A DNA stretch of 9,672 bases from Candidatus Pyrohabitans jungbluthii (GTDB lineage Archaea; Hydrothermarchaeota; Hydrothermarchaeia; Hydrothermarchaeales; BMS3B), in assembly GCA_002010065.2 (NCBI GenBank), contig MTMD02000009.1:1-9672 (forward strand). Reading direction: 5' to 3'. This document shows, in pieces, positions 1,796-9,672 of the stretch (the first letter of the stretch is position 1; each line of letters opens with the position of its first letter). The translations under genes and the position numbers were made by a program. The notes below the pieces were generated by a model. That model did no database searches, was not told the DNA's origin, and saw only the letters and a list, made by a program, of their open reading frames with translations.

Positions 1796-2350
1796 TCATT
1801 TCTGAGCTAGAACTTTTTTGGGTTTAATTTTACATTGTTTGACCATCTTTTTCAGATTTCTGACCTCTATCTCCTTTGCGATGCCAAGCCGGTACCACCT
1901 CTCCAAAGCGTCTACAAATCTTCGATTATAGGGAGCCTGCCCAAGGCTTGCCATGTACCATTCCCTGAGTTCCCTTAGGCTCCTCAACAACTCCTTATCC
2001 TCCTCTTCAAGCCCCTCCAGTTCTTCCTCGGCAAAACCACCGTCCGGCAAGTAAACTACACCTGCACTCTTAGGCGAGGGTTTCTGGGTTTTTATCAGCA
2101 CACCCATCAGTGAAAGTAGAGCCGCCCCGGAGGCAAGGTAAAGTATAAACCACGTCGCCAGGTCACCATCTTCATCAAGCACAGCATCGACTGGTAACAG
2201 GAGTAACATTCCCACGAATATAAGGCTCCACCCGAGGAAAACTCGCTTCTGGAATTCCTTCCTTCTCGAATGGTTTCCGTGATTCACCTTTTTAAATCCC
2301 TCTGAGTTTTTCAGGGTTGATTGCAATAGTTGAGAGTTGGATATGTGCAT
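1796..2350 (-). CDS. two-helix membrane protein with coiled-coil-like tail, tandem paralogue B (unknown function)
   Basis: This is a clear paralogue of the gene at 981-1529. Both share RVF..W.IIFVGMLLLLP, the turn DAVLDEDG, WFILYLASGA, GVLIKT, GVVYLxDGG and LRSLRELREWY. Helices lie at about 37-57 and 65-86, and the tail has LERWYRLGIAKEIEVRNLK (149-167). The coordinates give the outermost ATG (2350), which has GGTGA about 6 bases upstream. A GTG at 2287 (codon 22) may be the true start: it aligns with the GTG start of paralogue A, has GAGGGAT about 9 bases upstream, and follows a leader that is alignable but non-coding in paralogue A. The shorter form would be 163 residues. The C-terminus (KIKPKKVLAQK) is lysine-rich and unlike that of A. 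Function is unknown. Confidence 0.78.
   Translation of the reverse strand: MHISNSQLLQSTLKNSEGFKKVNHGNHSRRKEFQKRVFLGWSLIFVGMLLLLPVDAVLDEDGDLATWFILYLASGAALLSLMGVLIKTQKPSPKSAGVVYLPDGGFAEEELEGLEEEDKELLRSLRELREWYMASLGQAPYNRRFVDALERWYRLGIAKEIEVRNLKKMVKQCKIKPKKVLAQK
2138..2223. repeat. 86-bp hyperconserved block of the tandem paralogues, copy B
   Basis: This is the partner of 1368-1453, 82 of 86 bases identical and 770 bp away in direct orientation. It codes for the membrane hairpin. Its similarity is higher than that of the rest of the two genes, which fits either recent gene conversion or selection on the hairpin. Confidence 0.85.
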
Positions 2351-6833: not shown

Positions 6834-6854
6834 TTTATTTATCTGATAAATAAA
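6834..6854. promoter_or_regulatory. perfect 10+1+10 inverted repeat over the promoter of the NEW3-MinD-receiver operon
   Basis: The arms TTTATTTATC and GATAAATAAA are exact reverse complements around a single T. The right arm is itself TATA-like and is centred about 25 bases before a likely transcription start near 6875. The coding start is at 6889. A dyad on top of the TATA element fits either a repressor operator or a symmetric promoter reading both ways. It is the strongest regulatory signal I see in the window. Confidence 0.6.
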
Positions 6855-6888: not shown

Positions 6889-8499
6889 GTGAGAGGTATG
6901 AAGCGATATATCTGTGCCGCTGTTTTATTGCTGGTGCTGATTACAGCAGGTGTGAGAGCGGAATCCAATGTCGCCCCGGTAGAGTCTGCAACCCCGCTAA
7001 AGCAGATAAAAATCTCCTCCCTTTCCGTGACACCCAAGGTAATAACCCAGAATCAGATTGTTGACTTTGCACTCGAGATTAAAAACACCGGCAATATGGC
7101 GACTGACATAGAGCCGGAGATAGAAATCTACCTGGACTCCTCGCTTGTGGAGAAGATAAACTTCACGCCTCATGTGCTGGCTGCCGGGAGCAATATGAGT
7201 CTCTTTAGGGACCATCTCGTCACTCTGGGCGTAGGGGAATATCGCGTTGTGGCAAAGGTGTATTACGACAATCGCTCTTATCACACCTCAGAAGTGGGCA
7301 CGCTGAGCATCGTAGCGGAGCACGAAAAAGTGGGGGAGGGAGATATTAAGAATGATACTCCTCACTTGAGAGTCTGGTTCTTTCCTGTGCTGATAGAGGG
7401 CAAGCCTGGGGATTCATCTGCGGTGTCTTTTGAGCTGGAGAATCCCTCAGAGAAGGAGATTCGCGACATAAAGATTAGTATAGAGGGGATTCCCAGAGGC
7501 TGGGTAACACTGCAGCCTCAGGAAGTAACAATCAGGGGCAATGAGAGCGTGGGATTAAACATTGCAATAAGCGTGCCCAACAGCGCCCTGCCTGGAGACC
7601 GCAGAGCTGTGCTCAGAGTGAAGAGCGCAAAGGAGGAGGCAATTGCCAGCTTCATATTCAGAATTAAGCCCTATCCCCTCGACTTTGAAAAGCCAGCGGT
7701 GCTCAGGAAGGTTTACCTGAATGAAAAAGAAGGCAAAGCCTTGGTGAGCGTGGAGGTTGAGAACTCAGGCGTTAGGGTGGGGAGTATAGAAATCCTAGAG
7801 GAGATTCCAAAAGAGATCGCCTCCAGTGTGGAGGAGATAAATTTTAAAACCCCTGTGGCTGTGCTTGAGGCTGACCCTCTTGTTGCGTGGCGCCTTAGCG
7901 AGGTTGATCCGTATGAGGTCTACACCCTGGAGTATGAGGTGGGAAGCATAGCGGCGAGGTACTCGCCCTACATATACTGGCCCCTGCGACAAGTGAATGT
8001 GTTTTATACCAGCGTCAGCGGTATTGAGCTTCTCCAGTTCTCAGGTGCCCTCGCTGCGTATGCGGTGCCAGGTAAGGAATCTGAGGTGAAGCTGAGGATA
8101 ACCAACCCAACCCTGGAGGCGATGAATCTCACCTTCAAATTAGTGGCACACCCTGGCTGGGAAGTTTCACCGCCAGAGATTACAAAACTGCTTCTCCCGG
8201 GGTATGCACAGGAGCTGGTTTTTACTGTGAAGCCACCCCGCGATGCGCCACCAGGAAGCTACACCATCCTCGCGAGGGCGTTTAGCGAAGACGGAGAGGT
8301 TTCACAGCCACTGACACTTATCCTGCAGGAGGAGCCAAGGAGGATAAATCTCAGGAAGTTTCTAATCCCAGCGCTGAGCCTTGGAGCGTTGCTTTTATTA
8401 GTATATACTGCCATACATATATATCGGAAGAGACGGGTTTATCGCAGGGAAGTGGTTGAGGCGGTAGGAAGGATAAAGAGCAGCATGGAGGAAGAGTAG
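6889..8499 (+). CDS. exported membrane-anchored protein with CARDB/NEW3-like beta-sandwich domains
   Basis: The 536-residue protein begins with a signal peptide (hydrophobic 7-22, likely cut after VRA-24). Outside the cell it has an Ig-like CARDB-type domain (about 38-142, LEIKNTGNMATDIEPEI), a NEW3-like domain (about 165-260: GKPGDSSAVSFELENPSEKEI, GWVTLQP, ISVPNSALPGD), a third beta-rich domain (about 270-372: VEVENSGVRVG, EILEEIPKEIASSVEEI) and a second NEW3-like domain (about 385-480: NPTLEAMNL, PGWEVSPPE, DAPPGSYTI). One membrane helix (491-512) is followed by basic KRR and a short cytoplasmic tail of about 24 residues. This is a type I surface protein, and several NxS/T sites suit archaeal N-glycosylation. 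Start: GTG 6889 has GGGAGAG about 9 bases upstream; ATG 6898 is the alternative and keeps the signal peptide. Its stop TAG shares a base with the next gene's GTG. Ligand or partner is unknown. Confidence 0.82.
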   Translation: MRGMKRYICAAVLLLVLITAGVRAESNVAPVESATPLKQIKISSLSVTPKVITQNQIVDFALEIKNTGNMATDIEPEIEIYLDSSLVEKINFTPHVLAAGSNMSLFRDHLVTLGVGEYRVVAKVYYDNRSYHTSEVGTLSIVAEHEKVGEGDIKNDTPHLRVWFFPVLIEGKPGDSSAVSFELENPSEKEIRDIKISIEGIPRGWVTLQPQEVTIRGNESVGLNIAISVPNSALPGDRRAVLRVKSAKEEAIASFIFRIKPYPLDFEKPAVLRKVYLNEKEGKALVSVEVENSGVRVGSIEILEEIPKEIASSVEEINFKTPVAVLEADPLVAWRLSEVDPYEVYTLEYEVGSIAARYSPYIYWPLRQVNVFYTSVSGIELLQFSGALAAYAVPGKESEVKLRITNPTLEAMNLTFKLVAHPGWEVSPPEITKLLLPGYAQELVFTVKPPRDAPPGSYTILARAFSEDGEVSQPLTLILQEEPRRINLRKFLIPALSLGALLLLVYTAIHIYRKRRVYRREVVEAVGRIKSSMEEE

Positions 8500-9227
8500 T
8501 GGTTGGTTCAGAAGGCAGGGGTAGAGTAATAGGGATAATATCAGCTAAGGGAGGAGTGGGCAAAACCGCAGTGTCTCTGAATCTCGCCCTCAGCCTGATG
8601 CTTGACTTTAAAAAGCGGGTGCTCGCTGTAGATGCGCACACCATATCGCCAAACCTGAGCCTCTATCTGGGAATAATTGATGTAATACCGCCAGGAATCA
8701 GCTATGCCCTTAAAGACCCATCCTTTGCAAAAGAGAGCGTTTACATCCACTCAAACACTGGTCTGCACCTGCTCGCAGGATCAATAACCAGCGTTAAAGA
8801 GGTGAATCTGAGCAACCTTAAGCAGGTGGTGGAAAACCTCCACAATGATTATGATTACATTATTGTAGACACTTCCCCCAGCCTGGGAGAAAGCCTGAGG
8901 AATATCCTCAAAGCATGCGATGAGGTGCTGCTTGTGGTAAATCCGTGGCTGCCTATAGTTATAACCAATCTGAAGGCGGTAAAAATAGCGGAGGAAATGA
9001 ACAAGCCTCTGCGGGTAGTGCTCAACAAAGTGGGAAGGGGTATGGGAGAAATGAGTGTAAAAGAAGTGGAAGACAGCCTTGGGCACAAGGTAATTGTCAC
9101 AATACCGGTGGATCTGGAAGTCTACCGCGGCGTGGAGGAGCGCAAGCCGGTGATGCTTGCCAATCCCAAATCGCCAGGGAGCGTGGCTATAAAGAAGCTT
9201 GCCAGCCTACTCGTGAGTGAGGAATGA
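8499..9227 (+). CDS. MinD/ParA-like P-loop ATPase with atypical switch I (Asp to His)
   Basis: The 242-residue protein has the deviant Walker A KGGVGKT (17-23) with its signature lysine, a switch-I segment VDAHTISPNL (44-53), Walker B/switch II IIVDTSPSLGES (121-132), NPWLPIVITN (148-157) and the base-contact VLNKVGRG (174-181). This is the MinD/ParA/Mrp superfamily, dimeric ATP switches that position proteins or plasmids. The second Asp of the usual D-x-D, which is catalytic in bacterial MinD, is His47 here (codon CAC at 8637-8639). The C-terminus ends at KKLASLLVSEE without an obvious added amphipathic membrane-targeting helix, so membrane contact may come through the upstream protein's cytoplasmic tail (inference). 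GTG at 8499 overlaps the previous stop by one base and has GGAGG inside that gene as ribosome site. The stop overlaps the receiver gene by ATGA. A plasmid ParA role is unlikely, as no ParB or parS is seen. Confidence 0.88.
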   Translation: MVGSEGRGRVIGIISAKGGVGKTAVSLNLALSLMLDFKKRVLAVDAHTISPNLSLYLGIIDVIPPGISYALKDPSFAKESVYIHSNTGLHLLAGSITSVKEVNLSNLKQVVENLHNDYDYIIVDTSPSLGESLRNILKACDEVLLVVNPWLPIVITNLKAVKIAEEMNKPLRVVLNKVGRGMGEMSVKEVEDSLGHKVIVTIPVDLEVYRGVEERKPVMLANPKSPGSVAIKKLASLLVSEE

Positions 9228-9601
9228 ATATGACGAAGATAATGGTTGTGGACGACGAGCCAGATATTCTGGCTATGGTTGAGATGATTCTCAATCGGAA
9301 GGGGTATGAGGCCATACTCGCGGAGGGCGGCGCAGAGGCTCTTGAACTTCTTAAGAAAACAAAGCCTGACCTGATACTCCTTGATCTCATGATGCCGGGC
9401 ATGGACGGCACAGAGTTTCTGCGCAGACTTCGCTCCGACGAGAATCTCAAGGATATACCTGTTATAGTGGTTAGTGTGCGCTCAACCATCGAGAAAGAAA
9501 GCCGCGAGGCAATGGAGCTAGCTGACGACTACATCACAAAACCTATAGACTTACCCACTCTCTACACTGCAATAGAAGAAATGCTAAAAGAGAAAAAATA
9601 G
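9224..9601 (+). CDS. stand-alone CheY-like response regulator receiver
   Basis: The 125-residue protein is a complete REC domain and nothing else. The acidic pocket is Asp10/Asp11 (VVDDEPD), the phosphorylation site is Asp54 (LILLDLMMPG), the switch hydroxyl is Ser84 (VVSVRS) and the conserved lysine is Lys106 (YITKPID). All residues needed for phosphotransfer are present. With no output domain it must act by protein contact, as CheY or Spo0F do. The ATG overlaps the stop of the ATPase gene (ATGA, 9224-9227), so the two are translationally coupled; a second ATG at 9230 is possible. A partner kinase is not in this operon. The only kinase-like gene seen is the GAF sensor at the far left on the other strand, and no link is shown. 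Confidence 0.93.
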   Translation: MNMTKIMVVDDEPDILAMVEMILNRKGYEAILAEGGAEALELLKKTKPDLILLDLMMPGMDGTEFLRRLRSDENLKDIPVIVVSVRSTIEKESREAMELADDYITKPIDLPTLYTAIEEMLKEKK

Positions 9602-9618
9602 GGGATGGGGTTGGGGTT
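9585..9618. terminator. convergent 3' region: U-rich terminator for glnA and G-rich spacer
   Basis: On the minus strand, just past the glnA stop, a C-rich run leads into TATTTTTTCTCTTTT (9600-9586), a plausible archaeal oligo-U terminator lying inside the 3' end of the receiver gene. On the plus strand the spacer 9601-9616 consists of three GGGG runs separated by AT and TT. No oligo-T run follows on the plus strand beyond TTTT at 9617-9620. Confidence 0.4.
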
Positions 9619-9672
9619 TTAGAGGATTTTGTAGTACCTCTGAAGCTCCCAAGGATGCACCTGCACGCGGTA
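9619..9672 (-). CDS. glnA: glutamine synthetase, C-terminal end (partial)
   Basis: Only the last 17 codons and the TAA stop (9621-9619) are in the window. They read YRVQVHPWELQRYYKIL. The Q-V-H-P-W-E core and its position at the end of the frame match the C-terminus of glutamine synthetase type I (compare the Bacillus form ending in RTQVHPWEREQY). The enzyme makes glutamine from glutamate, ammonia and ATP. Catalytic parts lie outside the window. The gene converges on the receiver gene with a 17-bp spacer. Confidence 0.8.
   Translation of the reverse strand, partial: YRVQVHPWELQRYYKIL

Follow-up and report, generated by a model that had tools for sequence, protein, structure and literature searches.

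The window, the whole 9,672-nucleotide stretch analysed here, is one complete contig, C9, from an archaeal genome of 2.0 Mb, the named relatives of which are Ca. Pyrohabitans and other Ca. Hydrothermarchaeota. On its plus strand lie, in this order, the genes for a NEW3 surface protein (positions 6889-8499, GTG to TAG, 536 aa), a MinD-like ATPase (8499-9227, GTG to TGA, 242 aa) and a CheY-like lone receiver (9224-9601, ATG to TAG, 125 aa, or 123 aa from its probable start at 9230). A divergent helicase gene is found upstream of the trio, and directly past its 3' end comes a convergent glnA, the end of which occupies 9602-9672 on the opposite strand, a gene found at the start of contig C15. Because these last bases of the window are the end of the opposite-strand glnA, the predicted operon is one of exactly three genes. 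A TATA-like box, TTTATTTA, at 6834-6841 on the plus strand, approximately 48 nt 5' of the GTG, is a candidate archaeal promoter of the operon, a role suggested by its position; the window holds four matches to such a box, 0.5 being expected. The three-gene block given in the preliminary description is borne out, its open reading frame coordinates being confirmed and the same gene order being kept in five species, which is not chance, and Pfam matches agree with the domains assigned there (NEW3 beta-sandwich protein, MinD/ParA-type ATPase, CheY-like receiver).

At the first junction, the TAG of the NEW3 gene and the GTG of the ATPase gene share one base, at 8499. This overlap, reported previously, stands: it has a good ribosome site, a Shine-Dalgarno GGAGG at 8487-8491 on the plus strand that lies within the codons of the tail of the NEW3 protein, 7 nt before GTG 8499. 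The one-base overlap is also found in two related loci (L009 and L010), with a gap of 0-1 nt in two others (L011 and L053). At the second junction the ATGA overlap (9224-9227) is present as letters but is probably not an initiation site: the Shine-Dalgarno GAGG of the receiver gene (9219-9222, plus strand) is only 1 nt from ATG 9224, whereas 7 nt separate it from ATG 9230. Of four relatives, three (L009, L011 and L053) have the receiver start at the position equivalent to 9230, 2 nt past the ATPase stop. Given this spacing and the conserved start, translation of the receiver probably begins at ATG 9230 and not at ATGA 9224. The receiver gene would still be tightly placed, and the ATGA overlap should not serve as evidence; one of the two overlaps is probably unused, and the earlier statement that stoichiometric production is favoured is unsupported.

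The NEW3 protein matches PF10633 (NPCBM_assoc/NEW3, E 1e-15) in two stretches, with 58.1 bits against a gathering score of 24.4, and also has an N-terminal hydrophobic signal, one transmembrane helix (residues ~491-510, 8359-8418 on the plus strand) and a C-terminal tail of approximately 24 residues. It probably displays Ig-like domains outside the cell. An AlphaFold2 model, of low confidence (mean pLDDT 62), contains four beta-sandwich blocks and one helix spanning residues 488-535; a search for the identity of the fold gave generic Ig-like matches with low TM-scores, the model being too weak for the purpose. The cytoplasmic tail, YRKRRVYRREVVEAVGRIKSSMEEE (residues 512-536, 8422-8496 on the plus strand), is a candidate docking helix. 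It is the best-kept block of the protein in the full set of homologues (mean majority fraction 0.74 versus 0.42-0.64 elsewhere), R519 and V523 are invariant among 14 homologues, and R519, V523 and V526 form a helical face. In the divergent set, pairwise identity is 0.48 for the tail, 0.20 for the transmembrane helix and 0.33 for the median segment of the protein, although a linker at residues 254-273 (0.59) exceeds the tail. Between the trio species, the tail codons have undergone 5/6/11 synonymous versus 1/1/3 non-synonymous changes, and the 25 codons before the tail 3/6/4 synonymous versus 8/9/14 non-synonymous changes. As judged from sequence, selection acts at the protein level on the tail but not on the membrane helix; the end of the tail (SMEEE) doubles as part of the ribosome-binding site of the ATPase gene. 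The core YRRxVVEAVxRI is kept in NEW3 paralogues that are not followed by an ATPase gene, and the conservation fits a putative docking helix without naming its partner. Given that tail-bearing NEW3 paralogues are also located away from a NEW3-clade ATPase, the tail may serve another partner.

The ATPase matches AAA_31, CbiA and ParA in Pfam (5e-20 to 4e-14, AAA_31 best). Its ATP-binding motifs and MinD fold are intact: the deviant Walker A motif SAKGGVGKT (8541-8567, plus strand) carries the signature lysine K17, which is invariant in 20 MinD-like proteins, and the top Foldseek matches are 1ion and 1g3q, with a TM-score of 0.86-0.88 to Pyrococcus MinD. Nevertheless, its score against the archaeal MinD family TIGR01969, 140.9 bits, is below the curated cut-off of 201.75. 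The protein ends KKLASLLVSEE and lacks a C-terminal amphipathic membrane-targeting helix, and no other part of it was recognised as binding membrane or DNA; canonical MinD paralogues of the same genome have a basic amphipathic C-terminal helix, ending FMKRLLKGLFGR and similar. By alignment, His47 (8637-8639, plus strand) occupies the position of Asp40 of E. coli and B. subtilis MinD. In B. subtilis, MinD D40A is a hydrolysis-deficient locked dimer that clusters on the membrane (PMC13246001), and no published test of His at this position was found in the literature searched. The residue is His in all five trio ATPases and Asn in the other NEW3-linked ATPases. Across 126 archaeal MinD-like proteins, chosen by a NEW3-type profile and a canonical query so that the proportions are not population values, it is Asn in 70, Asp in 49 and His in 5, all five being the trio ATPases. 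Many Asn-type MinDs in this survey (loci L096-L185) have a normal-looking membrane helix. As Asn is common in archaeal MinDs, many of them with such a helix, substitution at this position is not peculiar to the partners of NEW3 proteins, and hydrolysis may survive it. Loss of Asp40 was also considered, and rejected, as a mark of surface-linked MinDs, the N/H state and neighbouring surface proteins being unassociated (Fisher P 0.43). A general link between archaeal MinDs and single-pass surface proteins was likewise set aside: 18 of 126 MinDs versus 26 of 531 other genes have such a neighbour, and half of the 18 are NEW3 pairs. In small-genome archaea, large surface proteins are seen near one or two Asn-type MinD genes (L131 1-6891, L133 4324-10000, L145 270-2920).

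The receiver matches PF00072 (Response_reg, E 1e-28) and has no other domain. The CheY-type acidic pair (D10, D11), the phospho-acceptor D54 (9383-9385, plus strand) and K106 are all present. The genome has 29 receiver matches and eight MinD-like matches, and three of the MinD genes have a same-strand receiver within 12 nt, where 0.1-0.2 would be expected (P 1e-3 to 1e-4, for an assumed gene number of 2100). These pairs are the trio, in which the ATPase comes first, and C13:7109-8236 and C1 near 19.2-20.4 kb, in which the receiver does. The C13 pair is approximately 3 kb from a NEW3 paralogue bearing the same tail, and thus gives the genus another, looser form of the trio. Outside the genus, an adjacent receiver-MinD pair is found only in one genome (G005), and in another (G018) a receiver is two genes after the ATPase; the adjacent receiver at the trio locus is, by this predicted gene content, a genus-level addition. 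The window begins with a cut histidine kinase gene (2-925), which in G004 is accompanied by its own receiver. Assignment to a defence system was rejected, the receiver giving only weak, partial PADLOC matches and the NEW3 protein and the ATPase none.

Adjacency confined to this genome, which by the preliminary description would refute its model, is not what is seen: the trio is present in all five species of the genus examined (G000-G004) and the NEW3-ATPase pair in ten genomes. The C-terminal half of the NEW3 protein, including the tail, is found in 10 of 394 archaeal genomes, and these matches are widely separated from all weaker ones. The NEW3-clade ATPase occurs in exactly the same ten, with an E-value gap of 4e-89 to 2e-73 that is still clear although the profile contains several of the found sequences, which raises their scores. 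With relatedness ignored, the hypergeometric P of this co-occurrence is 5e-20 when genomes are counted, 1e-10 when genera are, and 1e-3 for genera within the phylum. The two genes are adjacent on one strand in nine of the ten genomes, with a gap of -4 to +26 nt; in G019, the NEW3 frame before the ATPase is disrupted. Nine of the ten genomes belong to one phylum, in which the NEW3-linked ATPases of three families (f1, f10 and f6) group together as a single clade with 100/96 support, and the pairs are largely of common descent. The tenth, G057, is the only carrier of the pair among 27 genomes of its order and its ATPase, long-branched, falls outside the clade that the other NEW3-linked ATPases form; for these reasons transfer or fast change is possible. 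The family of the window genome includes two sister genera, g2 and g3, that have neither the tail-bearing NEW3 protein nor the clade ATPase.

The neighbours of the NEW3 paralogues include surface proteins of several kinds. In G001, G003, G004 and G021, a NEW3 protein of 796-801 aa directly follows a very large surface protein, which ranges from 1054 aa (cut) to 2411 aa; in G021 the next gene is that of the ATPase. NEW3 also has small secreted beta-rich neighbours at the C13 locus and in both G018 and G057. That giant and small surface proteins adjoin NEW3 paralogues suggests that a larger surface assembly has the NEW3 protein as its base in the membrane. The reading frames of the giant proteins (partly beta-helix, 1779-2411 aa) extend into the start of the 800-aa paralogue (L048 1219-8385, L050 6721-13956, L051 3801-9140). 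The small proteins, of 172-239 aa (L045 16126-17440, L054 5121-6477), are possible filament subunits; as subunits of the TasA/thread type they gave no credible match in PDB and Pfam searches, and the part of the published thread paper that was seen names no trio-type ATPase. Furthermore, the trio borders glnA genes of two different types (window 9602-9672, L010 7775-9130, L009 9165-10646, L011 3542-5023), and in several species a NEW3 paralogue adjoins apparent ammonium transporter and PII genes (L047 5566-7178, L048 10789-12401), which raises the possibility of a nitrogen link of these loci, or of coincidence. Elsewhere in the window, tandem paralogous membrane proteins of 182 and 184 aa (981-1529 and 1796-2350, minus strand), with no Pfam family, adjoin a GAF histidine kinase, an arrangement kept in L009.

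The tail-bearing NEW3 protein and the ATPase share exactly the same 10 of 394 genomes, which suggests a role of the tail as membrane anchor of the ATPase. The NEW3 protein would be exported, with its Ig-like domains outside, and its 24-residue cytoplasmic helix would bind the ATPase, supplying the membrane attachment that the ATPase lacks. The ATPase would bind ATP and dimerise, and since the Asp40 position is His, its hydrolysis is, by analogy with MinD D40A, probably slow or lost. Slow or lost hydrolysis would make it a long-lived clamp that could cluster NEW3 proteins at chosen places, together with the surface parts attached to them. Least certain is the last step, confined to this genus, in which the phosphorylatable receiver would adjust the ATPase as the fused receiver domain may in TadZ/CpaE. 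That the operon is such a membrane-anchored MinD-type module, the tail holding a long-lived ATP-dimer clamp under NEW3 and the receiver adjusting it in this genus, is a tentative reading, to which we give somewhat less than an even chance. The earlier proposal of a three-part device thus holds better for the link between ATPase and tail, for which tail conservation and the perfect co-occurrence argue, than for the receiver, which is directly adjacent at this locus only in the genus. The full version, a phospho-controlled surface scaffold in which a receiver tunes a hydrolysis-impaired MinD-like clamp on the NEW3 tail, as a split TadZ/CpaE without the pilus machine, is unlikely.

It could also be argued that the ATPase still hydrolyses and that the basic, conserved tail is an ATPase-activating peptide, as are ParB N-termini and MinE, with cycling that spaces the surface proteins. 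The intact MinD fold and ATP-binding motifs, and a tail with an invariant R519 and a helical face of R519/V523/V526, are consistent with such dynamic ParA/MinD-type positioning, and haloarchaeal MinD4 and MinD2 influence motility and cell shape (PMC11588486). However, His or Asn replaces the Asp required for hydrolysis in studied MinD (PMC13246001), the ATPase has no recognised element of its own with which to bind membrane or DNA, and we consider this explanation improbable. A tail that triggers an enzymatic, kinase-type activity of its P-loop partner, as in CapA/CapB, is less probable still: the layout of a membrane modulator with a separate P-loop ATPase is the same (PMC3795738) and BY-kinase-type profiles match the ATPase (AAA_31 best, TIGR03018, CapAB chimeras), but the ATPase has the MinD signature lysine, lacks a C-terminal tyrosine cluster and has MinDs, not BY-kinases, as its closest structures. 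Finally, the genes may be neighbours only through joint need, without physical contact, the receiver acting elsewhere. The genus-specific presence of the receiver at the locus, in a genome with 29 receiver matches, would fit this. Nevertheless, the NEW3-ATPase pair is kept over three families and jointly absent elsewhere, the tail is apparently selected, and receiver-MinD pairing recurs at three loci and in both gene orders, and co-expression alone has a low probability.

The conserved 24-residue tail and the Asp40-altered ATPase form a small, directly testable system in which to study how a cytoplasmic switch ATPase could control an external protein. Little is settled on how surface structures are placed and assembled in archaea, the archaeal MinD literature found being from haloarchaea, and a wider question is why so many archaeal MinDs carry Asn at a position where the studied ones depend on Asp to hydrolyse ATP. 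No description of the trio was found in the literature searched, and the known systems closest to it each differ. From archaeal MinD (TIGR01969; haloarchaeal MinD2 and MinD4) the ATPase, while sharing fold and ATP-binding motifs, differs in its sub-cut-off score, the His at the Asp40 position, the missing C-terminal membrane helix and the surface-protein partner. CapA-type modulators use their final 30-50 cytoplasmic residues to activate a P-loop ATPase encoded by a separate gene (PMC3795738), and the trio resembles CapA/CapB and the BY-kinase modulator pairs in having a membrane protein with a C-terminal cytoplasmic tail and such an ATPase, although the type of ectodomain differs; membership of the BY-kinases was rejected, there being no Tyr within the last 30 residues of the ATPase. 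Bacillus MinJ is an integral membrane protein that recruits MinD dimers (PMC13246001), the role proposed here for the NEW3 protein, but MinJ belongs to the division site and contains a PDZ domain, whereas NEW3 is a single-pass surface protein. In TadZ/CpaE, which localises the Tad pilus, receiver domains are thought to mediate contacts between ATP dimers (PMC13170226). Shared with the trio are the ATP dimer, which the trio ATPase would form, and a receiver and MinD/ParA-type ATPase tied to an envelope surface structure; membership was nevertheless rejected, given that the chains are separate and that the neighbours are a helicase and glnA, with no Tad secretion or pilus genes in the operon. 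Unlike TadZ/CpaE, the receiver and the ATPase are separate genes in all five species, the ATPase is without a membrane helix, and the receiver keeps the phosphorylation residues where that of TadZ is atypical. The trio would thus be a variant on the known MinD-type theme, with a mechanism that we infer.
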